Source: Gordonibacter massiliensis (ex Traore et al. 2017)
Lineage (GTDB): Bacteria > Actinomycetota > Coriobacteriia > Coriobacteriales > Eggerthellaceae
DNA: 64,000 nt
Assembly: GCA_900170005.1 (NCBI GenBank)
Contig: LT827128.1
Location: 1-64,000 of the forward strand
Reading direction: 5' to 3'
Below the pieces are notes generated by a model. The model was not told where the DNA came from. It did no database searches and worked only from the letters and a program-made list of their open reading frames with translations. Of the stretch, positions 4,797 to 43,453 are shown one piece after another. A program made the position numbers and the translations under genes. Position 1 is the stretch's first letter; the number at the start of each line of letters is the position of its first letter.

Positions 4797-6707
4797 GTGA
4801 AACAGACATCCGGAATCGACGCGCTGCTCGAGGCGCTCAAGCAATCAGGGGTCAACGTCGACGGTCGGTTCGACGCCGATGCCGAGGCGCCGTCGGACGG
4901 CGCCGGCCGCTCCGGCGGCAACGGCGGCGGCGCGAAGCCTCCCCACGTGCACATGGAGGTTCCGTTCGCGGACCGCATGGCGGCTTGGGGCAAGAAGGCG
5001 CTCATCATCGCCGCCATCGTGATCGTGCTCATCGGCTTGGCCGCCTATTGGTGGTTCCATCCGCCCATCAACATCCACAGCACGGACACGTGGATGTTCG
5101 TGGCCGTGTTCATTCTGCTGCCGCTGTTCCTGGTGTTCTGGAGCAAGTCGCACAGCTACAAGGCGGGCACGGGCAAGGTCGAGGCGAACCCCGGCAAGGC
5201 CAAGGCGTTCAAGTTCGCGAGCTACGTGCCGGTGGCCGTGGCCGTGCTCGGCGTGATCGGCGCCATCATGTCGCTGTCCATCTTCCCCGGCAACGCCGAG
5301 AAGTACGCGAACGTGCTGCAGACCGACACGCTCGATTTCGCCAACGACATCAAAGAGGTCAACTACTCGGAGATCCCCATCATCGACCGCGACTCCGCCG
5401 TGCTTCTGGGCAACCGCGAGATGGGCTCCATCCCCGAGTTCGTGAGCCAGTTCGAGATATCGCCGCTGTACAGCCAGATCAACTACCAGGGCGCACCGGT
5501 GCGCGTGAGCCCGTTGGGCTACGCCGACCTGTTCAAGTGGTTCACGAACCGCGAGGCGGGCATTCCCGCCTACGCGCTGGTGAACATGACGACGCAGGAC
5601 GCCGAGATCGTGAAGCTGGGCGACAGCCCCATCCACTACTCGCAGTCCGAGCCGCTCGTGCGCAACATCGACCGCCACGTGCAGCTGAGCTATCCGTTCT
5701 ACATGTTCGACGAGAAGTCGTTCGAGATCGACGAGGACGGCCACCCGTGGTGGATCTGCCCGGTGCAGACCCGCACGATCGGCCTGTTCGGCGGCACGAC
5801 CATCAACCGCGTGGTGCTGTGCGACGCGACGACGGGCGAGACGCAGGACCTGGCCATCGAGGACGTGCCGCAGTGGGTCGACCGCGCGTATCCGGCCGAG
5901 CTGCTCATCGAGCAGTACAACTGGAGCGGCAAGTACAAGGACGGCTGGCTGAACTCGGTGTTCGGCCAGGCGGGCGTGGTGCAGACGACGCCGGGCACCG
6001 ACGGCTCGCTGGGTTACAACTACATCGCGAAGGACGACGACGTGTGGGTGTACACGGGCGTGACCTCGGCCACCGCCGACAACTCCATCGTGGGCTTCGT
6101 GCTGGTGAACCAGCGCTCGGCCGAATCGCACTTCTACTCGGTGCCGGGCGCGACGGAGGCGTCGGCCATGCAGTCGGCCGAGGGCCAGGTGCAGAACCTG
6201 CGCTACAAGTCCACGTTCCCGCTGCTCATCAACGTGTCCAACGAGCCGACGTACTTCATGGCCCTGAAAGACGATGCGGGCCTCGTGAAGAAGTTCGCCA
6301 TGATCAACATCAAGCAGTACCAGTACGTGGCTATCGGCGACACGGTGGCGGAATGCCAGAAGTCCTACCAGGCCCTGCTCGCCACCAACGGCGTGTCGAC
6401 GGGCGATACCGAAACCTTGGGCGTGCTGGAGGCCCAGGGCAAGATCGTGCACATCGCGCAAGCGGTGGTCGAGGGCAACTCGCACTTCTACGTGAAGCTG
6501 GAAGACGGCGACAACATCTACGACTTCGCGCTTCCGGGCCTCATCGAGATCGTGGGGTACAAGGAGGGCGATCCCATCGCCTTCAAGTACGTGGAGGCCG
6601 AGCCCACGAACCCCGTTGAGGAGATCCTCGCAGCGGACGGCGCCTCGGCGGCCGCTGCGGCCAAGGAGGCCCAAGCCACGGGCGACGCGGCCGGTAACGC
6701 CGCGTAG
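4797..6707 (+). CDS. Membrane-anchored protein of unknown function with a large soluble domain
   Basis: The product has 636 residues from a GTG start preceded by GGGAAAGGG. Residues 1-65 are hydrophilic and Gly/Asp-rich. Three membrane segments follow at about 68-87, 99-115 and 141-162. The remaining 470 residues are a soluble beta-rich domain rich in aromatic residues, and the C-terminus is an Ala-rich tail. No catalytic motif or known family is recognised. An odd number of membrane passes would place the large domain on the opposite face from the N-terminus, probably outside. It has its own -10 box and is followed by a GC-rich repeat hairpin, so it is likely a single-gene unit. Confidence 0.8.
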   Translation: MKQTSGIDALLEALKQSGVNVDGRFDADAEAPSDGAGRSGGNGGGAKPPHVHMEVPFADRMAAWGKKALIIAAIVIVLIGLAAYWWFHPPINIHSTDTWMFVAVFILLPLFLVFWSKSHSYKAGTGKVEANPGKAKAFKFASYVPVAVAVLGVIGAIMSLSIFPGNAEKYANVLQTDTLDFANDIKEVNYSEIPIIDRDSAVLLGNREMGSIPEFVSQFEISPLYSQINYQGAPVRVSPLGYADLFKWFTNREAGIPAYALVNMTTQDAEIVKLGDSPIHYSQSEPLVRNIDRHVQLSYPFYMFDEKSFEIDEDGHPWWICPVQTRTIGLFGGTTINRVVLCDATTGETQDLAIEDVPQWVDRAYPAELLIEQYNWSGKYKDGWLNSVFGQAGVVQTTPGTDGSLGYNYIAKDDDVWVYTGVTSATADNSIVGFVLVNQRSAESHFYSVPGATEASAMQSAEGQVQNLRYKSTFPLLINVSNEPTYFMALKDDAGLVKKFAMINIKQYQYVAIGDTVAECQKSYQALLATNGVSTGDTETLGVLEAQGKIVHIAQAVVEGNSHFYVKLEDGDNIYDFALPGLIEIVGYKEGDPIAFKYVEAEPTNPVEEILAADGASAAAAAKEAQATGDAAGNAA

Positions 6708-6744
6708 GGCGATTGCCCGGAAGAGCCTGCAGGCAACGATGACG

Positions 6745-6776
6745 CCGTAGGGGCGGGCTGCTGCCCGCCCCTACGG
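6745..6776. repeat. CCGTAGGGGCG-family hairpin, short form
   Basis: A perfect 14-bp inverted repeat (6745-6758 with 6763-6776) closes a TGCT loop. It begins CCGTAGGGGCG and ends CGCCCCTACGG, the same outer sequence as the longer repeats at 31576 and 39039. It lies just after the 4797 gene and may help stabilise or end its transcript, although there is no T-tract. Confidence 0.7.
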
Positions 6777-6806
6777 GGGCTTGGCGTGTTGTTTTGAGTG
6801 CGGCGG

Positions 6807-6836
6807 TTGACATTTTTCGGATTGATGGCAAAATAT
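6807..6836 (+). promoter_or_regulatory. Promoter of the rplJ-rplL operon
   Basis: TTGACA (6807-6812) is a consensus -35. An A/T-rich -10 region (around 6829-6836, AAAATAT) follows at about 16-18 bp in an otherwise GC-rich area. The L10 leader starts a few bases downstream. Confidence 0.7.
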
Positions 6837-6840
6837 AGCA

Positions 6841-7000
6841 GTTGCCTCTTCGGAGGCGACACGATGAAAGATAGTTCCGCTGCCCAAGACAGCAGGCACC
6901 GAAAGGTTTAATCGCAGACGATGCGGCCCGCCGAGGTGGTTGTATAAGTTTCGCGCTTAGACGACCCCTGCTGTCATGAGACGGCGGGGGTCGTTCCTTT
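6841..7000 (+). ncRNA. Ribosomal protein L10 leader
   Basis: The untranslated region before rplJ folds into a first hairpin, GTTGCCTC-TTCG-GAGGCGAC (6841-6860). A bulged region follows (about 6880-6940), containing GCCCAAGACAGCAGGCACCG-like and CCGCCGAGG segments. It ends in a terminator-like stem, ACGACCCC (6961-6968) with GGGGTCGT (6987-6994), followed by a T-rich run. L10 leaders are known to bind the L10-L12 complex and regulate their own operon. Position and folding match that role; exact boundaries are inferred. Confidence 0.75.
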
Positions 7001-7065
7001 TTCTCAGGCGACGATCCCACCCGCGAGGGGCGGAACCCGAGTTTGAGAAGAAGGAGGTGTACTAC

Positions 7066-7587
7066 ATGCCCAACGTGAAGAACCAAGAGATGCTCGCCAA
7101 GATCAAAGAGGACCTGGACGGCGTTTCCGCTGTGTGGGTCGTGGACTACTGCGGCCTGACGGTGAAGGACATCCAGGCGTTGCGCGTGGCTATTCGCGAG
7201 ACCGGTGCGAGCCTGAAGGTGTACAAGAACACCCTCATGCACATCGCGCTGGAGGAGTCGGACCTGCCCACGCTCGACGATCTGCTGGAAGGCCCGAGCG
7301 CGTTCGTGTTCGCCGGCGACGACGTGGCCGCTGCCGCGAAGGCCGTGAAGACGTTCGCCAAGACCAACCAGAACCTGGAGATCAAGGGCGGCTTGATGGA
7401 AGGCGCGCAGGTTTCCGCCGCACAGGTGGAGGCTATCGCATCGCTTCCGTCCCGCGAAGAGCTGCTGGCTCAGATCGCCGGCGCCATTTCCGGTGTTGCC
7501 CGCGGCCTTGCCGTGGCGCTCAACGGCGTGCCGAGCGGTTTGGCCCAGGTCACGAAGGCCGTGGCCGACCAGAAAGAAGCTGCTTAA
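7066..7587 (+). CDS. rplJ: 50S ribosomal protein L10
   Basis: L10 anchors the L7/L12 stalk on the large ribosomal subunit. The 173-residue product starts MPNVKNQEMLAKIKEDL and carries the family core: an N-terminal globular domain with VDYCGLTVKDIQALR and KVYKNTLMHIAL, then a C-terminal helix that binds L12 dimers. ATG 7066 is chosen over the longer frame from 6976 because AAGGAGGT lies directly upstream and the longer N-terminus would run through the leader terminator. rplL follows 91 bp downstream. The L10 leader upstream implies autoregulation. Confidence 0.96.
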   Translation: MPNVKNQEMLAKIKEDLDGVSAVWVVDYCGLTVKDIQALRVAIRETGASLKVYKNTLMHIALEESDLPTLDDLLEGPSAFVFAGDDVAAAAKAVKTFAKTNQNLEIKGGLMEGAQVSAAQVEAIASLPSREELLAQIAGAISGVARGLAVALNGVPSGLAQVTKAVADQKEAA

Positions 7588-7678
7588 CCCGCAGCTTGGC
7601 AGCGTGACGAGCGCTGCCTAACCGAAAGTTGTACAAGCACCGGTCGGGAAGGCCCGACCGCTTTGAAAGGAAGCTAAC

Positions 7679-8056
7679 ATGGCTGTTACTCGCGAAGAGA
7701 TTATCGAGGCCCTCAAGGAGATGTCCCTGCTCGAGGCGTCTGAACTGGTGAAGGATATCGAGGAGACCTTTGGCGTTTCCGCCGCCGCCCCTGTGGCCGT
7801 GGCCGCCGCCGCTCCTGCCGAGGGTGGCGCCGCCGCCGAGGAGAAGACCGACTTCGACGTCGTGCTCGAGGGCTTCGGCGACAACAAGATCGCCGTCATC
7901 AAGGTTGTCCGCGAGATCACGAGCCTGGGCCTGAAGGAGGCCAAGGAGCTGGTCGAGGGCGCGCCGAAGCCGATCCAGGAGGGCGTGGCCAAGGACAAGG
8001 CCGAGGAGATCAAGGCCAAGCTCGAGGAAGCCGGCGCGGCCGTCACCCTCAAGTAG
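7679..8056 (+). CDS. rplL: 50S ribosomal protein L7/L12
   Basis: L7/L12 forms the flexible stalk that recruits translation factors. The 125-residue product has the N-terminal dimerisation domain (1-35), an Ala/Pro-rich hinge (about 36-55) and the conserved C-terminal domain with EKTDFDVVL and [27 protein letters not shown] site precedes the ATG. It is the second gene of the rplJ-rplL operon and is followed by a hairpin terminator. Confidence 0.98.
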
Positions 8057-9364: not shown

Positions 9365-9937
9365 ATGGATTACGGTGAGCTGAAGGAACAGATTAACGGA
9401 TTGGACGAGCGGCAGCGCAAAGGGTGCGCCCGCGTGCTCTCGCTGGTTTCCATCGGGGGAGGGGTGCGGCCTGAGTTCCGCGAGCATCTGGACGGAGCGT
9501 CGACGTACCGCGAGTTCTTCGAGGCGCTGTACGGCGACGACGCCCTGCGCTTCACGAAGGCGTGGGCGGCATGGGCCCGGCACGACGGCAAGCAATGGGT
9601 CGAGCGCTTCGAACCGGCCCAGGCGGTGGAGCATGTGCCGTTCGCGGGGCGCGGGCTGCCGGTGGAGTTTTCCGGGAACACCATGCTCGTGCCGCTGGGC
9701 GGGCACGGGAAGAAGGCGCGCGTCCTCGCGTTCGAGGACGGGGCTTTCAACGAGGACGCGGCTGCGTACTTCACCTCCTTGGAAGGCGCTTTCACCTGCG
9801 GCGGCCTGACGTTCGACGGCATCTACGATGTGTTCACAAGCGGTAACACGGTGCTGTTCGAGCGTTGGACGGTCAACGAGAAGGGCATCCGCGTCAAATC
9901 CGCCCAGCTGGCGGAAAACTACGGCCTTACCGGTTGA
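9365..9937 (+). CDS. Hypothetical soluble protein
   Basis: The product has 190 residues with no signal peptide or membrane segment. The N-terminus is charged and helical. Residues 95-190 look beta-rich, with regular glycines. No family is recognised. Codon use matches neighbouring genes and an AGGTAAG site precedes the ATG, so it is a plausible native gene. It converges on the CmpB-like operon across a long inverted repeat. Confidence 0.65.
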   Translation: MDYGELKEQINGLDERQRKGCARVLSLVSIGGGVRPEFREHLDGASTYREFFEALYGDDALRFTKAWAAWARHDGKQWVERFEPAQAVEHVPFAGRGLPVEFSGNTMLVPLGGHGKKARVLAFEDGAFNEDAAAYFTSLEGAFTCGGLTFDGIYDVFTSGNTVLFERWTVNEKGIRVKSAQLAENYGLTG

Positions 9938-10030
9938 CACTGATCCGGCGGGCCGGTCGGCCCGAAACGATGCGAAGACCGGGACGGTTGCCGAAGGCGT
10001 AGAATCGTACGTCCTTGGCAACCGTCCACT

Positions 10031-10106
10031 AGGGCAAGGGCTCTGACCTTGCCGTCGACCTGCGGAAACGTTGTTGGCTGAGCGGCAAGGGCAGAGCCCT
10101 TGCCCT
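10031..10106. repeat. Long inverted repeat between convergent genes
   Basis: AGGGCAAGGGCTCTG (10031-10045) is the perfect reverse complement of 10092-10106. An extra internal pairing, CCTTGCC (10047-10053) with GGCAAGG (10084-10090), extends the stem. It sits between converging transcripts and may act as a two-way terminator. It resembles the CCGTAGGGGCG repeats in ending with CCCTACGG, but the interior differs, so it may be a separate family. Confidence 0.6.
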
Positions 10107-10136
10107 ACGGAAGCCTCGCACAGGCGGCAGCGCGCC

Positions 10137-10739
10137 TTACGAGAATTTGACGACGCAGAGCACGACGAACCCTCCGACGACGACGGCCGCCGTCAGGTTC
10201 ATCACGCGCAGCGGCAGTTTCGCCAGCGCTTTTTGGCACAGGGGGTAGATCACCCAGGTGTAGAGCATGGCCACGGCGCCCAGCGCCACGTCGTTCACGA
10301 GCCAGGCCTGGCCCAGCACGTTGAGCGGCAGCTGGGAGTTGTCCCAGAGCGGGTAGACGCCGGCGGCGTTCGGCTGGTTCAGCATGAAGCCCATGCACAG
10401 CTCCATGAGCATGCAGACGACGACGGTGACGATGAAGAACTGGACGCCGGCGCCCGCCAGGGTGCGCCGCCGCTCCACGAGCCTCGTTTTGAGGGGCACG
10501 AGCACGATCACGCACACGGCGGTTCCCACCCCGTACACGAGGAAGGGGTACATCGGGTCGTCCCATACGAGCGAGTCGGCATCCACGATGCCGAACAGGT
10601 TCATGAACGAGCAGTAGGCGATCTCCATCCAGTGGCCGAGCACGCTGAACACGCAGAAGTACACGGCCAGGTTGCGCCAGAACGCGAAGGAGTCCGGCGA
10701 GTAACCGTGAAGCTCGTCTTCTTTCGACAGGAGGGGCAT
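10137..10739 (-). CDS. CmpB-like (putative ABC-transporter type IV) membrane protein, short paralogue
   Basis: The product has 200 residues with about five membrane segments. The motif FCVFSVLGHWMEIAYC near residues 28-43 resembles the FF-S-LGW-xE signature of PF06541, whose biochemical role is unclear. It is a clear paralogue of the C-terminal two-thirds of the gene immediately upstream (10762-11862), sharing LPFLVYG-like, MLNQP and TWVIYP blocks, so the pair arose by duplication. Only 22 bp separate them, implying one transcript with this gene second. Confidence 0.75.
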   Translation of the reverse strand: MPLLSKEDELHGYSPDSFAFWRNLAVYFCVFSVLGHWMEIAYCSFMNLFGIVDADSLVWDDPMYPFLVYGVGTAVCVIVLVPLKTRLVERRRTLAGAGVQFFIVTVVVCMLMELCMGFMLNQPNAAGVYPLWDNSQLPLNVLGQAWLVNDVALGAVAMLYTWVIYPLCQKALAKLPLRVMNLTAAVVVGGFVVLCVVKFS

Positions 10740-10761
10740 GGGCTAAGCGGTCCCGAGGGCC

Positions 10762-11862
10762 CTAGGCGCCCGCATCGGAATCGTACTGGCGTGAGAACTC
10801 GATCGTGCTCTCGCCCGTGTCATCGTCCGCCGTCACCTCGACACCGGGAATGAGCACGTTGATGCAGTACAGGAAGAACAGGATACAGAATCCGACGACC
10901 ACGGCGATGAAAGCGATGTTCATGCCGTCGCGGGGCACTTTGGCGAGCCAGCCCTCGAGCGCCGGGTAGATAACCCAGGTCATGAGCGTTGCCACCACGC
11001 CGAAGGCCACGGCGTTCTGCAGGCACACCTGACCCATGAAGTTGCAGAACATGTCGCTGTAGTCCCATAGCGGCAGCTTGCCGTCGGGCCCGGGCTGGTT
11101 GAGCATGAGGCCCATGGCCAGCTCGATGAGCGTGCACACGAGCGCGTTGATGACGAAGCTGATGATGAGCGGTACCACACGGCTGCCGATGTGTTTCTCG
11201 AGAAAGTTCTTCACGGGGTAGAGCAACAGCACGCACGCCACGGCGCCGAATCCGTAGACGAGGAAGGGGTAGAGCCAGTCCGACCAGATTTGGGAGTTCG
11301 GATCGTAGATGCCGGGAATGAGACCGAAGCGGATGAGCGTGCAGTAGCCCGCTTCCATCCAGTGCCCTACCACGCTGAACACACAGAAGTATATGATGAG
11401 GTTGCGCCAAAACGCCCAGGTCTTGGGCTGGTAGTAGTTGATGTCCTTCGAGAGCTCCTGCTGCTTGACCTCGGCGTTGAAAGGCTTCGTGAGCACCGCC
11501 TTCGCGCGGCGCGACGTGAGGAAGTACGCGAGCAGGATGATGTCGGACGTGCAGGCGAGCAGCTGGTCCGCGGGGTTGAACACGCCGGTGGCGATGTTGA
11601 AGGCGGTGCCGAGAACGATGTTGAACAGGCTGAATCCGATGATGAAGTAACGCGCCAGCCGCTTGCGCTGCCAAATGAGCCAGAAGCTGATGCCGTCGAA
11701 GATGAGGTTGACGAAGTCGAGGATGTCCTCGAATCCCAGCTCGTAGTTGCCTTTCACCAGGAACACCAGCAGCGCGATGGTGACGATGACGTTGAAAGCG
11801 AAGAACACTTGGAGAAGCCGCATGAAACCGAGCTTCTTCGGGTTGCTGAAATCTTTTGCCAT
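10762..11862 (-). CDS. CmpB-like membrane protein with an extra N-terminal membrane domain
   Basis: The product has 366 residues. The ATG at 11862 is preferred over a TTG five codons upstream because a GGAG motif lies about 9 bases before it. Residues 1-145 form an extra four-pass membrane domain (segments near 13-33, 40-60, 65-85 and 90-115). The rest carries the CmpB-like region with YFCVFSVVGHWMEAGYC, MLNQPGPDGKLPLWDYSD and TWVIYPALEGW. The charged C-terminal tail (DDDTGESTIEF) is probably cytoplasmic. It is the first gene of a two-gene operon with a shorter paralogue. The two may form a hetero-oligomer, which is inference. Confidence 0.75.
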   Translation of the reverse strand: MAKDFSNPKKLGFMRLLQVFFAFNVIVTIALLVFLVKGNYELGFEDILDFVNLIFDGISFWLIWQRKRLARYFIIGFSLFNIVLGTAFNIATGVFNPADQLLACTSDIILLAYFLTSRRAKAVLTKPFNAEVKQQELSKDINYYQPKTWAFWRNLIIYFCVFSVVGHWMEAGYCTLIRFGLIPGIYDPNSQIWSDWLYPFLVYGFGAVACVLLLYPVKNFLEKHIGSRVVPLIISFVINALVCTLIELAMGLMLNQPGPDGKLPLWDYSDMFCNFMGQVCLQNAVAFGVVATLMTWVIYPALEGWLAKVPRDGMNIAFIAVVVGFCILFFLYCINVLIPGVEVTADDDTGESTIEFSRQYDSDAGA

Positions 11863-25410: not shown

Positions 25411-25703
25411 GCGTTGCCGGCGGCTCGGTTCGCCGCGGCTCGCTCGCTGCGCCTGCATGCCTTTGACCTGCGACTTAAAAGCCGAATAGTCAATCCTTAA
25501 TAATAAATTGAATCCGCGCTCGTCTATGTTAGCCCTCTTCCCGTTTTGGCATACTTACTGTTTTGGCGACACATAGGCGACCGAATCGCGCTCAAAAGCG
25601 CCGGAGCAGGTCGTAGCTGCTTTCAAGGGGCCCCGCGCGTGTTGAAAGCTTGTTCGGACGCGCGGCAGACGGGGCAAAGGTTCTTGCGGATCGGAGGAGA
25701 AGG
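25411..25703. other. Upstream region of the sensor-channel operon
   Basis: This 293-bp gap holds the most AT-rich stretch of the first half of the window (about 25475-25515), containing AATCCTTAATAATAAATTG. It probably carries the promoter for the lipoprotein and MscS genes. Candidate hexamers are TTGACC (25463-25468) and A/T-rich -10-like blocks, none with ideal spacing. No gene or RNA was recognised. Confidence 0.4.
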
Positions 25704-26540
25704 ATGGGCAGAGTTGGCAAGACGAGGGGCGTGGCGTTCCTGCTTGTCGCCCTTGCGCTTGCGTGCGCGCTCGCGGGGCTGGCCGGATGCGCCGGCGACG
25801 GCGGGAAGGGAACGGCGGCCAACGGGACGCTGCGCGTGGGCGTGCGAAGCGACGTGGTGGGTTTCGGGTACCTCAACGAGGACACGGGCAAGTACTACGG
25901 TTTGGAGATCGACATCGCCAACGAGCTGGGCGAGCGGCTGGGCTACGCGGACGTGGAGTTCGTCACGGTCCTGCCCGAGAACCGCAAGGACATGCTCGTG
26001 AACGGCGACATAGATTGCCTGATCGCCTGCTACTCCATCGCGGAGTCGCGCGAGAAGAACTTCGACTTCTCGCCGGCGTACTACGAGGACTCGTCCATCA
26101 TGATGGTGGAGAACAGCTCGCTCGTCGCCAGCATCGAGGGGCTCAAGGGCGGGACGATCGCCACCATGTCCGGAGCGAACACGGCTCCGCAGCTGGCTCA
26201 GAGGTTGACGGACGTGGGCTTCACGTCGGGCGAAGTGGTGTCCCAGACCGAGGATCACGCGGAAACGGTGTTCGACAACTTCCGCTTGGTGCAGCTCGAC
26301 TCGTATCGGGATCTGAGCCGGGCGCTAGAGGAGGGCACCATCGACGCCGCGTGCATGGACGGCAGCATCGCCCATACGTACCTGAACGACAACCGCAGCG
26401 TCCTCAGCTTCAAGATCGCCACCCAGAGCTACGGCGTGGCCACGCAGAAAGACTCCGAGCTGAGCAAGCCGGTTTCCGACGCCGTTCAGGCGATGATCGA
26501 CGACGGCACGGTCGCCGCGTTGACGGACAAGTGGGACTGA
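25704..26540 (+). CDS. Solute-binding lipoprotein (SBP family 3 type)
   Basis: The product has 278 residues from ATG 25704 with GGAGGAGAAGG upstream. A lipoprotein signal ends in the lipobox LAGC, giving acylated Cys29. The mature part is a periplasmic-binding-protein fold of the amino-acid family: NGTLRVGVRSDVVGFGY, the family-like GLEIDIANELGERLGY, and FDFSPAYYEDSSIMMV. No ABC permease or ATPase follows. The next gene, 17 bp downstream, is a sensor-bearing mechanosensitive channel, suggesting that the binding protein presents a ligand to that channel. The ligand is unknown; a polar amino acid is typical of the family. Confidence 0.88.
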   Translation: MGRVGKTRGVAFLLVALALACALAGLAGCAGDGGKGTAANGTLRVGVRSDVVGFGYLNEDTGKYYGLEIDIANELGERLGYADVEFVTVLPENRKDMLVNGDIDCLIACYSIAESREKNFDFSPAYYEDSSIMMVENSSLVASIEGLKGGTIATMSGANTAPQLAQRLTDVGFTSGEVVSQTEDHAETVFDNFRLVQLDSYRDLSRALEEGTIDAACMDGSIAHTYLNDNRSVLSFKIATQSYGVATQKDSELSKPVSDAVQAMIDDGTVAALTDKWD

Positions 26541-26557
26541 CGGGGAGGCGCGGGCAT

Positions 26558-29500
26558 ATGTCGAGAAAACTCAAAGTCAAAATCGCCGTCCTCGTCGCGG
26601 TCGCGGCGGTTAGCATGGCCGCCATGGGCGTGCTGCTGGCCACGATGCAGACCGATCTGTCGTTGGACGGCTACACCCAGGAAATGCAACAGGAGGCGGC
26701 CGCGCTCCCCGATTTGCTGGTGGACGCCGACGATGGCGTCAAGCAGAACACGGCCACGTACGACGCCATATTCCAGTCGAAGGCCGAGAGTGTGGCCTAT
26801 ATGGCGAACAACAACACGGGGTTCGAGGCCACGCCGGCCAAGATGGCCGAGTACCAGGACCTTTTGGGCGTCGACAACGTCATGGTGGTCGACCGCGAGG
26901 GGAACCTGATCGCGCAGGCGCGGGACACGCTCGCGAACTTCACCTACGCCCGCTTCAACCAGCTGCGCACGGTGTTCGACGACGGGAAGCCGTCGAAGGC
27001 GGTGGAGATAGAGCTGCCCGACCAAGACTGGCTCATGCGCTACTACGCCGCCCGCATCGACGATTCCACCATGGTGGTGATCGAGCAGAACCCCGCGGAG
27101 CTGCGCGAGCTGACGCAGATCGCGGGTTCCACCGAAAGCGTGCTCAAGAACATCGCCATAGGCCAGCACGGCTATATGTTCGCCGTGTCGGCGCAGGACT
27201 ACCTGGTGGAATACCACCCGAACAGCAACCTGGTGGGTGCCGACGCCATCGACAAGGGGATCGACGCGACCGATTTGGAGAACGGCGCCTTCTCGTGGAT
27301 GACGCTGGACGGCGAGTCGCTGTACTGCCACGTGAGCAAGATCGGCGACACGTACTACATCGGCGCCGTGCCCGAAAGCGACATGGCCGCCACGCGCAAC
27401 ATCACGGTGGGCGTCATCCTGTTCATCTTCTTCGCGGTCATGTGCGTGGTCATCATGTACGGCGTGTTCGTCATGCGCGAGGGCGAGCGCCAGGGGCACG
27501 ATTCCGAGAACTACCGCGAAATAGGGCCGCTGCGCTACAACAAGGTCATCGGCAGGAAGGCCGCCGTGCTGTCGCTCGTGGGCTTTTTGGGCATCCTGCT
27601 GGTGTCGTTCTACATGCAGACGCTGTTCGCGCTCTCGTCGCAGTCGGTCGCCAACAACGAGCGCGCCGACGAGATGGTGGAGACCATCCAGCGCGCGAAC
27701 GACCGCATGGACGACCTGAGCGACCAATACGGCGAGCGCTACCTGAGCAAGTGCCGGGTGGCGGGCTACATCCTCGACCGCAACCCCGCCTTGGCGAACA
27801 GCGACGACTTGAAGAAGCTCGGCGACGTGCTCCAGATCCAGTACCTGTACGTCTATGACGAGACCGGCTTCATGACGGCCACCAGCTCCTCGTACACGAA
27901 CTTCACCCTGAGCGAGAACCCCGACGACCAGTCCTTCGAGTTCCGGAAGCTGCTCCAGGGCGCCGACGCGGTGGTCCAAGAGCCGCGGGCCGACGACATC
28001 ACCGGCGAGCTGCGCCAGTACATCGGCGTGTCGCTGCACGACGCCAAGGGCGACGCGAGCGGCCTCGTGCAGATCAGCGTCCGCCCGACGCGGCTGGAGA
28101 ACCTGCTGTCCACGGTGCGCATCGACAGCGTGCTCGACGGCGTGAAGGCCGGCTCCGACGGGTTCGCCTTCGCGGTGAGCAAGGCTGACGGCACGTTCGC
28201 CTATTTCCCCGACCAACGGCTCGTCGGCAAGGACGCGCTCGAGCACGGCATGACGGAGAACCAGCTGAAAGACGGGTACTGCGACTACGTGACCATCGAC
28301 GGCGTGCAGTACTACGCCTCCTCGGCCGAGACCGACGACTACTACCTTTACATCGCCGGCGCCGAAGGCGAGCTCATGGCCGAGCGCGTGCCCTTGACGC
28401 TTGTCACGGGCGGCGTGGCGCTGGTGTGCCTGGCGGTGATATTCCTGCTGCTGGCGTTCGAGCCCCGGCGCAGCATCACCGTGGCCAAGGCACCCGTCGA
28501 TGCGGATGCCCGCATGTTCGACGTGAAGATGCCGAGCGGCCGCATGGCGAAGACCGAGTCGGCCGCCAGCCGCTGGCTCGACCGCTCGTTCAAGTGGAAC
28601 GAGCGCACGGCCGAGCAGAAGACGGCGGCGGTGGTGAAGTGGCTCGTGGGTATCTCGGTGGTCGTGGTGTTCGTGGCCGTGGTGTTCCAAGACCGCTTCT
28701 TCGGCAGCAACTCCATCTTCTCCTACATCCTGGGCGGGGAGTGGGAACGCGGGCTGAACGTGTTCGCCCTTACCGCGTGCCTCATGTTCGTGTGCGTGGC
28801 CCTCACCGTGGTGGCGGTGGTGCAGAAGCTGCTGAACCTGCTGGCCACCGTGCTGGGCGCCCGCGGCGAGACGGTGTGCCGCCTGCTGGGCAGCTTCATC
28901 AAGTACGCCACCATCATCGGCATGGTGTACTACTGCCTCATGCTGGTGGGCGTGGACACCACCACGCTGTTGGCGTCGGCGGGCATCCTGTCCATCGCCA
29001 TCAGCTTCGGCGCGAAGGAGCTCGTGTCGGACATCTTGAGCGGCCTGTTCATCATCTTCGAGGGCGAGTTCCGCGTGGGCGACATCATCAAGGTGGGCGA
29101 CTGGCGCGGCACCGTGGTGGAGATAGGCGTGCGCACCACGAAGGTGGAGGACGGCTCCCAGAACATCAAGGTCATCCGCAACAGCGACATCAGCAACGTG
29201 ATCAACATGACCAAGGAGACGTCCTACGCGTCGTGCGACGTCGGGATAGAGTACGGCGAGTCGCTCGAGCGCGTGGAGAACATTCTGGCCAAGGAACTGC
29301 CGTTCGTGCGCAAACGCCTGCCGGCCATCATCGACGGCCCGTTCTACAAGGGCGTGGTGTCGCTGGGCGACAACAGTGTGAACATCCGCATCGTGGTGCA
29401 GTGCGCCGAAACGGATCGCATCCAGCTGGAGCGCGACCTGAACCGCGAGATGAAGCTGATCTTCGACAAGTACGATATCAGCATCCCGTACCCGCAGGTG

Positions 29501-29629
29501 GTGCTCAACCAGCCCACCGAGTTCAAGAAGGCCACGGACGCGGAGAAGCGCAGCGCCGACCGGTTCAACGAGGAGCAGAAGGCCGCCGCGAAGGAGCTCG
29601 GCAACGAAGAGGAGGACCAGACGCGGTAG
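26558..29629 (+). CDS. MscS-type channel fused to two extracytoplasmic Cache-like sensor domains
   Basis: The product has 1023 residues. Segment 1 (8-30) leads to extracytoplasmic sensor A (31-280). Two membrane segments (283-305, 335-360) lead to sensor B (361-610), and segment 613-634 returns to the cytoplasm. Three more segments (691-711, 735-757, 776-797) precede the MscS pore helix (801-838, with LLASAGILSIAISFGAKELV) and beta domain (FRVGDIIKVGDWRGTVVEIG). Both sensors contain the Cache-like pattern GFAFAVSKADGTFAYFPD or GYMFAVSAQDYLVEYHP. Ordinary MscS proteins are about 280 residues and sense tension only. This architecture implies ligand modulation. It is probably co-transcribed with the upstream binding lipoprotein. 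Cache assignment is by motif. Confidence 0.88.
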   Translation: MSRKLKVKIAVLVAVAAVSMAAMGVLLATMQTDLSLDGYTQEMQQEAAALPDLLVDADDGVKQNTATYDAIFQSKAESVAYMANNNTGFEATPAKMAEYQDLLGVDNVMVVDREGNLIAQARDTLANFTYARFNQLRTVFDDGKPSKAVEIELPDQDWLMRYYAARIDDSTMVVIEQNPAELRELTQIAGSTESVLKNIAIGQHGYMFAVSAQDYLVEYHPNSNLVGADAIDKGIDATDLENGAFSWMTLDGESLYCHVSKIGDTYYIGAVPESDMAATRNITVGVILFIFFAVMCVVIMYGVFVMREGERQGHDSENYREIGPLRYNKVIGRKAAVLSLVGFLGILLVSFYMQTLFALSSQSVANNERADEMVETIQRANDRMDDLSDQYGERYLSKCRVAGYILDRNPALANSDDLKKLGDVLQIQYLYVYDETGFMTATSSSYTNFTLSENPDDQSFEFRKLLQGADAVVQEPRADDITGELRQYIGVSLHDAKGDASGLVQISVRPTRLENLLSTVRIDSVLDGVKAGSDGFAFAVSKADGTFAYFPDQRLVGKDALEHGMTENQLKDGYCDYVTIDGVQYYASSAETDDYYLYIAGAEGELMAERVPLTLVTGGVALVCLAVIFLLLAFEPRRSITVAKAPVDADARMFDVKMPSGRMAKTESAASRWLDRSFKWNERTAEQKTAAVVKWLVGISVVVVFVAVVFQDRFFGSNSIFSYILGGEWERGLNVFALTACLMFVCVALTVVAVVQKLLNLLATVLGARGETVCRLLGSFIKYATIIGMVYYCLMLVGVDTTTLLASAGILSIAISFGAKELVSDILSGLFIIFEGEFRVGDIIKVGDWRGTVVEIGVRTTKVEDGSQNIKVIRNSDISNVINMTKETSYASCDVGIEYGESLERVENILAKELPFVRKRLPAIIDGPFYKGVVSLGDNSVNIRIVVQCAETDRIQLERDLNREMKLIFDKYDISIPYPQVVLNQPTEFKKATDAEKRSADRFNEEQKAAAKELGNEEEDQTR

Positions 29630-29651: not shown

Positions 29652-29681
29652 GCGAGGCCCGGGCGTTGCCCCGGGCCTCGC
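29652..29681 (+). terminator. Terminator after the MscS fusion gene
   Basis: A perfect 12-bp stem, GCGAGGCCCGGG (29652-29663) with CCCGGGCCTCGC (29670-29681), is followed by TTCGTTGTGG. Confidence 0.8.
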
Positions 29682-42400: not shown

Positions 42401-43453
42401 TCACGCCATCCCCGGGGCCTCCATGTCCCGCACGATGGCATGGTAGGCTTCGCGGGCGATGTAGCGCTTGAGGCAGCGTATCGCCTCCCTCTTCGTCTTG
42501 CCCTCGGACATCCTGCGCGCGACGTAGGCGCGGGTCCTCTCGTCGTGGGCCATGCGGGTGATGGCCATGGTGTAGAGCGCCGAGTTGGCCCGCCTGTCCC
42601 CGCCCCGGCTGAGCCGGTGGCGGCTGGTCCTGCCGCTCGAGGCGGGGACGGGGCTCGCCCCGCACAGCATGGAGAACGACGCCTCCGAGCGCAGGCGGGA
42701 GACGTTCGCGCCCGCCGCGAGCAGGAGCCTCGCGGCGACGTGCGGGCCGGCGCCGACGAGCGCCCGCACCGAGGGGACGAGCTTCTCCGTGAGCGCGTCG
42801 ATCCTCGCCTCCAGGTCCCCGGCCTCCTTCTCCAGCGCGAGCGCCCGGCGCGCGAGCGAGCGGAGGGCTGCGCGCAGGGACGCCTCGGGCGTCGCGCCCG
42901 CGCCCGGGCGCATGGAGGCGCAGGCGCGGGCGAGCTCGGAGGACCCCATGCCCCGAAGCGGCGCGCGCATGCCCTCGGGCAGGGAGACGACCCGGGCCTG
43001 CAGCGCGTTCAGCGCCGCCGTCCTCGCCTTCACGGCGCCCTCGTAGGCTGCCTCCAGCGCGCCCAGGGCCTCGGCCTCGAGGCCCCGCGACTTGGCCGGC
43101 GCGCAGCGGGCCCCCGCGAGCGCCGCGCGCGCCGCCTGGACGGCGTCGAACCCGTCGTCCTTGCCGCGGCGGCGCCGCTCGGAGCGGTCGGGCGAGACGA
43201 CCTCGAGGACGGGAACGCCTGCGAGCGCGAGCGCGCGGGCGAGCCCCGCCCCGTAGCCTCCCGTCCCCTCGACGCCGACGGCCGAGACCTCCCCGAACCC
43301 GCGCATCCACGCGAGCATCGAGGCGTAGCCCCCGGCGTCGGCGGGGAACGGCCGCGCGCCGAGCAGCGCGCCCGCGGCGTCCAGAACCGCTGCCGCGTGG
43401 GCGTCCTTGTGCGTGTCGACGCCCCCTGTGACAACCCTGCATCCGTCTGCCAT
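42401..43453 (-). CDS. IS110-family transposase/recombinase
   Basis: The product has 350 residues. The N-terminal RuvC-like DEDD domain has Asp13 (GGVDTHKDAH), Glu62 (VGVEGTGGYG) and Asp100/Asp103 (KDDGFDAVQAA). The middle is helical (coiled coil about 190-230). The C-terminal Tnp domain carries LVGAGPHVAARLL and CGASPVPASSGRTSRHRLSR, where Ser272/273 is the probable catalytic serine. GGAGG lies 9 bases before the ATG. The frame is intact with all catalytic residues, so the element may be active. Enzymes of this family are guided by an RNA made from the element's own non-coding end. Confidence 0.95.
   Translation of the reverse strand: MADGCRVVTGGVDTHKDAHAAAVLDAAGALLGARPFPADAGGYASMLAWMRGFGEVSAVGVEGTGGYGAGLARALALAGVPVLEVVSPDRSERRRRGKDDGFDAVQAARAALAGARCAPAKSRGLEAEALGALEAAYEGAVKARTAALNALQARVVSLPEGMRAPLRGMGSSELARACASMRPGAGATPEASLRAALRSLARRALALEKEAGDLEARIDALTEKLVPSVRALVGAGPHVAARLLLAAGANVSRLRSEASFSMLCGASPVPASSGRTSRHRLSRGGDRRANSALYTMAITRMAHDERTRAYVARRMSEGKTKREAIRCLKRYIAREAYHAIVRDMEAPGMA

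Follow-up and report, generated by a model that had tools for sequence, protein, structure and literature searches.

A conserved gene pair of an amino-acid-type binding lipoprotein and a double-sensor MscS channel in Gordonibacter massiliensis and related Coriobacteriia

What is the task of a solute-binding lipoprotein whose gene lies directly in front of an MscS channel gene, away from any importer genes? The question is raised by two adjacent plus-strand genes in a 64,000-nt stretch of Gordonibacter massiliensis contig LT827128.1 (the window, to which the coordinates below refer unless another locus or genome is named). A preliminary description of this DNA had placed a solute-binding lipoprotein 17 bp upstream of a 1023-residue MscS channel, and both the coordinates and the Pfam matches agree with that account. 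We found that the pairing is conserved among the sampled Coriobacteriia that carry the channel, that the channel has two dCache-like sensor regions, and that the lipoprotein has the family membership and conserved residues of an amino-acid-binding protein. We put at about even chances that the two form an amino-acid-regulated MscS channel, in which the loaded lipoprotein would dock on the dCache sensors and shift MscS gating. The parts of the pair are as follows.

25704..26540, plus strand: lipoprotein gene (ATG at 25704, stop ends at 26540, 278 aa)
26558..29629, plus strand: channel gene (ATG at 26558, stop ends at 29629, 1023 aa)
26648..27400, plus strand: sensor 1, channel residues 31-281, dCache fold in the predicted model
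27623..28396, plus strand: sensor 2, channel residues 356-613, dCache fold in the predicted model
28769..29512, plus strand: MscS core, channel residues 738-985 (three transmembrane helices, beta domain, C-terminal domain), from phmmer and Pfam

MscS chains of the E. coli type can be aligned with residues 738-985 of the channel, and phmmer gave E-values of 8.9e-36 with 3udc (residues 772-984) and 3.3e-17 with 7onj (residues 738-985). Three MscS models of Pfam score above their cut-offs (PF00924, 59 bits vs 20.2; PF21088, 27.9 vs 23.1; PF21082, 23.7 vs 21), and no NCBIfam model matches the channel at its own cut-off. On homology over the pore helix and beta domain, the feature given as defining in an excerpt of PMC4560390, the protein is assigned to the MscS superfamily. 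Its predicted order is transmembrane helix 1 (TM1), sensor 1, TM2, a cytoplasmic loop, TM3, sensor 2, TM4, a cytoplasmic linker, an extra TM5 and the MscS core; hydropathy places the TM segments at residues 9-27, 282-300, 335-353, 615-633, 692-710, 737-755 and ~781-799, followed by the pore helix. Given a cytoplasmic N-terminus, both sensor regions would lie outside and the MscS vestibule inside, which fits the MscS requirement.

The two Cache-like sensors of the preliminary description are borne out by structural comparison. AlphaFold2 models of residues 28-288 and 352-628, built from nine sequences, match dCache structures; the mean predicted local distance difference test score (pLDDT) is 82.5 for sensor 1, and confidence in the sensor 2 model is modest, with a mean pLDDT of 67.7 and a predicted TM-score of 0.48. 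The top Foldseek matches in the PDB, all with probability 1.00, are PscC (best E 1.7e-9, a tandem Cache domain), Mlp24 and PctA for sensor 1, and the Mlp37 ligand-binding domain (best E 9.4e-12), PctA and CtaA for sensor 2. The fit over whole domains is poor, with query-normalised TM-scores of 0.25-0.47 and root-mean-square deviations of 6.8-12.5 Å among the matches listed, and half-domain fits to WalK are good (125 residues at 2.8 Å; 132 at 2.7 Å). Single-Cache/PAS kinase domains such as that of WalK (Z 12.1 for sensor 1, 14.2 for sensor 2) equal or exceed the dCache rows in the fold comparison, which makes any choice of dCache subfamily tentative. At the level of sequence, the Pfam model dCache_1 matches both outside regions below its threshold of 45 bits (the whole channel scores 43.0 bits, and the two regions taken singly score 26.2 and 31.1), and a sequence-profile search of the PDB returned unrelated chains only for the sensor 1 alignment (best E 0.013) and Mlp37 only for that of sensor 2 (E 0.075). 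As modelled, each sensor is composed of a long helix and two PAS-like subdomains, located outside between two TM helices, an organization that is dCache-like in spite of the low whole-domain TM-scores. The sensors also share a common ancestry, as hhalign aligns them with probability 99.1 (E 6.2e-19, 246 columns, 26% identity), so that a TM-dCache-TM module has been duplicated ahead of a complete MscS core.

The lipoprotein belongs to SBP_bac_3 (Pfam PF00497, E 2e-26, 92.7 bits vs a cut-off of 26.4), and its closest PDB match is PEB1a (2v25, E 7.7e-24). It possesses a lipobox, LAGC, with a lipidation-type cysteine, C29 (codon 25788-25790), and the lipobox pattern is present in 49 of 50 aligned orthologues. 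Residues S111, R116 and D219 are unchanged in all 49 aligned core lipoproteins and also in the divergent locus L048 (G and L numbers denote genomes and loci of our surveys). R116 and D219 align with an arginine and an aspartate of PEB1a, and we take the three positions to be those that contact a bound amino acid at its carboxylate and its amino group. By its Pfam score and these ligand residues the protein is classed as a family-3 amino-acid solute-binding protein (SBP), with an alpha-amino acid as its probable ligand. Of the amino-acid- or osmolyte-controlled channel proposed earlier, the first half is favoured by the SBP_bac_3 family (excerpt of PMC9602780), and the osmolyte is without direct support. 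By eye, many orthologues (L021, L027, L070 and L081 among them) show a TRRxF-like N-terminal stretch, from which the Gordonibacter window copy differs; it suggests export of such orthologues by the twin-arginine translocation route.

The absence of an ATP-binding cassette (ABC) partner, as claimed in the preliminary description, holds locally. Upstream of the pair lies the gene for isocitrate dehydrogenase (icd), and the gene that follows it encodes a protein of ABC exporter type (PF00664+PF00005); importer permease and ATPase genes are not found beside the lipoprotein gene, the nearest PF00528 match in the genome being ~330 kb away. Service to an ABC importer encoded nearby was rejected as the lipoprotein's role, as the adjacent ABC genes encode the ATPase of another system and the exporter-type protein.

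Conservation of the pair was surveyed in 396 Coriobacteriia genomes, using channel residues 1-700 as query (E ≤ 0.001, 76 matches) and at least 48% identity as the definition of an orthologue. Fifty-four genomes encode a channel orthologue; its gene is full-length and open in 50 of them (1020-1085 aa), and fragmented or deletion-bearing in four (G159, G259, G279 and G303). The lipoprotein gene adjoins the channel upstream in 53 of the 54, so that the check on pair conservation proposed with the preliminary description came out in its favour, and the arrangement of an sbp gene adjoining a receptor gene, as for SBP-activated transmembrane receptors, is general among these genomes. This count takes in G371, where the contig starts inside the lipoprotein gene, and G118, where the gene has two TAG stops; the gene is missing in G303. 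In the reciprocal survey, with the mature lipoprotein against the same 396 genomes (at least 49% identity, up to six candidates scored per genome), 54 genomes encode an orthologue and 53 of these also have the channel, the lone orthologue being that of G224, whose gene is interrupted by an in-frame TGA and where 9.5 kb of sequence gave no match to the channel. Among the candidates scored, the next-closest family-3 proteins reach at most 41% identity. The intergenic gap is 8-22 bp in all 48 genomes where the script delimited both genes. Decaying copies are found at loci L088-L092, with channel pieces in G303, G259, G279 and G159 and a broken lipoprotein gene without channel in G224.

The flanks vary among the compared loci: icd is located upstream in Gordonibacter and Eggerthella and not in Enteroscipio, and the ABC exporter downstream in the Gordonibacter loci and Enteroscipio and not in G. 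pamelaeae. Chance adjacency was rejected, because the pair is kept while these flanking genes differ. In the divergent locus L039 a K+ transporter gene (9368-11671) follows the pair, and in L048 an aquaporin-family gene (5668-6420) and a GGDEF gene (420-1535) stand beside it, neighbours that hint at an osmotic context.

The gene context bears on another use of such a pore. The Corynebacterium glutamate channel is an MscS-type pore that releases an amino acid, and a feedback-controlled exporter could be built in the same way, the pore releasing an amino acid while lipoprotein and sensors report its level outside. The complete MscS core and the adjoining amino-acid-type binding protein would suit it; a biosynthetic or catabolic amino-acid gene, however, is not consistently located beside the pair in seven loci (14-kb or 11-kb context), and we consider an exporter improbable.

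Compared with the nearest relative, whose channel is 94% identical, the ratio of nonsynonymous to synonymous substitution rates is 0.079 for sensor 1, 0.085 for sensor 2 and 0.081 for the MscS core, and the mature lipoprotein stands at 0.179; every part of the pair is under purifying selection. The channel might be an ordinary osmotic valve with passive or structural sensors, beside a lipoprotein that serves an ABC importer encoded elsewhere, since the MscS core is complete and not all of the 21 ABC permease matches in the genome are assigned. The same genome, however, encodes a separate plain MscS of about 320 aa, and four of its other stand-alone family-3 proteins have a permease match and an ATPase of their own adjoining (the ATPase by eye); one further family-3 protein (511939-512577 in the genome) is without a PF00528 match within 10 kb. 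An osmotic valve would also leave unexplained the strict pairing and the mean column conservation of the sensors, which at 0.71 and 0.72 compares with 0.78 for MscS, and we judge it unlikely.

How the pair came together was examined in a midpoint-rooted lipoprotein tree of 41 rows, which includes 16 of the 49 core lipoproteins and that of L048. All 17 channel-linked lipoproteins fall on one side of a single branch (support 100/99, present in 100% of 200 bootstrap trees), consistent with a single origin of the channel-linked lipoproteins. These include the divergent pair of L048 (G188), with ~33% identity in the channel sensors, 36% in the lipoprotein and a gap of 46 bp. Independent pairing at L048 is not favoured: its lipoprotein stands on the channel-linked side of that branch, although on a long branch (2.67) flagged as unsure by the tree program. 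As for spread, a phylum sample of 396 genomes gave nine matches, all in Gordonibacter's own family or order, and a scan of the genome collection, which reaches close relatives only, gave eight loci, all in Coriobacteriia; matches beyond Gordonibacter's order were found neither in the 396-genome class sample nor in the phylum sample.

Conserved pairing with a short gap amid changing flanks, dCache folds, the invariant S111, R116 and D219, the grouping of the lipoproteins, and the rate correlation and GlnH-GlnX precedent described below all count for an amino-acid-regulated MscS channel, which we hold to be as probable as its alternatives taken together. In such a channel, the lipid-anchored lipoprotein would capture an alpha-amino acid outside the membrane and, once loaded, dock on the channel's dCache modules, as loaded binding proteins do on chemoreceptors and kinases. 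The sensors would then move the flanking TM helices, and this movement, relayed by the cytoplasmic linker and TM5, would change the tension at which the MscS pore opens or its open probability. Sensor 1 could pair with sensor 2 within a subunit, which, we propose, would avoid the clash between a two-fold dCache arrangement and a seven-fold channel. That a separate amino-acid-loaded lipoprotein acting on dCache sensors opens or closes the MscS pore, giving amino-acid-evoked ion flux in Coriobacteriia, with the duplicated sensors as an intra-subunit pseudo-dimer, is a more demanding statement and one that we hold to be less likely than not.

Rates of change were compared as well. In 48 genomes, the distances of the lipoprotein follow those of the two sensors once MscS distances are removed (partial r 0.605 and 0.582; none of 500 permutations as high), and hardly follow MscS distances once those of the sensors are removed (partial r 0.019; 195 of 500 permutations as high). 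Partial correlations of 0.411 for sensor 1 and 0.364 for sensor 2 do not separate one of them as the docking sensor. The pattern is weak evidence that lipoprotein and sensors co-evolve: rate shifts may be common to domains that face outside, and the comparison was made without an unrelated outside-facing control.

This last point weighs against a lipoprotein-gated channel, and so do several others. The pair is patchy, with 342 of the 396 Coriobacteriia genomes lacking a channel orthologue. In G118 (Collinsella tanakaei ET10; L032/L038, L038 2122-2988) two in-frame TAG codons interrupt the lipoprotein gene beside an open channel gene; these stops may represent recent decay, error or recoding. 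The reverse is seen in G159, G259 and G279, where the lipoprotein gene remains beside a broken channel. Distant relatives add to this. From 22 further weak-match genomes, 20 stretches were taken from 16 (G009, G192, G324, G332, G377 and G383 were left out); six of these stretches contain an MscS core, and 14 are without an MscS match. Five of the six distant double-sensor MscS loci (L049, L051, L052, L054 and L056) encode an MscS of ~1000 aa with the same double-sensor build, and nothing in the 8-9.5 kb covered at each matches the lipoprotein. In L051 an in-frame stop divides the channel frame. An MscS with two sensors is thus more widespread than the pairing with a lipoprotein, and perhaps older. 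In L054, a 727-aa protein (5753-7933) with a weak RyR-domain match (E 0.021) overlaps the start of the double-sensor MscS frame.

These relatives, mostly without a lipoprotein gene, make a sensor acting alone a serious rival. The dCache domains would then bind a ligand of their own directly and set MscS gating, with the lipoprotein as an auxiliary second input or merely co-transcribed. Direct binding is the rule for most dCache domains with known ligands, and the fold matches include amino-acid, uracil and urate receptors. The near-strict pairing in 54 genomes argues the other way, and the composition of the sensors may do so too: the dCache_1AA amino-acid motif, given for PctA as R126, W128, Y129 and D173 (excerpt of PMC10104139), has no R-x-[WFY]-[YF] counterpart in either sensor by a simple pattern check that leaves room for other ligands. 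On balance we regard direct-binding sensors as rather unlikely, well above the exporter and the valve in probability. Regarding the dedicated binding protein of the preliminary description, the conserved pair without importer genes supports the term, and the five distant loci of the same build without such a gene speak against it.

Local signals around the pair in the window are listed below; both ribosome sites come from direct reading of the sequence.

25693..25697, plus strand: ribosome site GGAGG, 6 nt 5' of the lipoprotein ATG
26544..26548, plus strand: ribosome site GGAGG, 9 nt 5' of the channel ATG
29652..29681, plus strand: terminator-like hairpin of 12 pairs, 3' of the channel gene, weak alone

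The scan for terminator-like sites found three vs 2.8 expected in shuffles. Elsewhere in the window, the start of an open reading frame on the minus strand (42401-43453) resembles, by eye, an IS110-type transposase.

A search of open-licence PMC papers found none in which MscS is joined with Cache domains or paired with a binding protein of its own, in line with the preliminary description, which was aware of no such pairing; a term look-up in two papers on channels with Cache domains (PMC11237719, PMC11245519) gave no mention of MscS. Already known, as far as excerpts of the sources tell, are MscS proteins with added ligand-binding domains (PMC4560390) and channels of bacteria to which a family-3-like domain is fused (GluR0). 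If the proposed function is true, the conserved pairing of an SBP with MscS would add ion flux to the outputs of binding-protein receptors and offer biophysics a natural ligand-tuned MscS; gating of such a channel by an outside amino acid would then become directly testable in culturable gut species.

Several known systems share part of this organization. The bCNG-type members of the MscS superfamily likewise combine an MscS core with added ligand-binding domains, which perhaps replace or modify tension gating (excerpt of PMC4560390); the Gordonibacter channel, in contrast, has a pair of dCache modules on the outside and is accompanied by a separate lipoprotein. Bacterial glutamate receptor channels of the GluR0 type (PMC13099474; 2pyy) also place an ion channel under the control of a family-3-like binding fold, but in them this fold is part of the same protein as a potassium channel, whereas here a separate lipoprotein accompanies an MscS pore. 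In animals, the alpha2-delta protein of calcium channels likewise brings two dCache domains to bear on an ion channel; unlike the Gordonibacter sensors it is a separate subunit of an unrelated channel, and the likeness is one of arrangement only (PMC9901441, in part). Among bacterial receptors, loaded SBPs activate chemoreceptors, kinases and cyclic-di-GMP enzymes (excerpt of PMC9602780), and the genes of SBP-activated kinases often adjoin the sbp gene (excerpt of PMC11113362). The pair resembles SBP-activated histidine kinases, chemoreceptors and cyclic-di-GMP enzymes in having the sbp gene beside the receptor gene (same excerpts), and differs in that the SBP-activated receptors named in the introduction of PMC9602780, as excerpted, include no ion channel. 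A close parallel comes from Actinobacteria, where the lipoprotein GlnH, which binds aspartate, is linked to the kinase PknG and to GlnX, a membrane protein for which two outside sensors are predicted. In both cases a family-3 lipoprotein without transporter is co-encoded with a membrane protein bearing two predicted outside sensors; the sensors of GlnX are four-helix bundles that signal to a kinase, whereas dCache sensors are joined here to an MscS pore (all from sections of PMC6069109). By this analogy, the lipoprotein-channel pair looks like the GlnH/GlnX logic with an MscS pore as its output.

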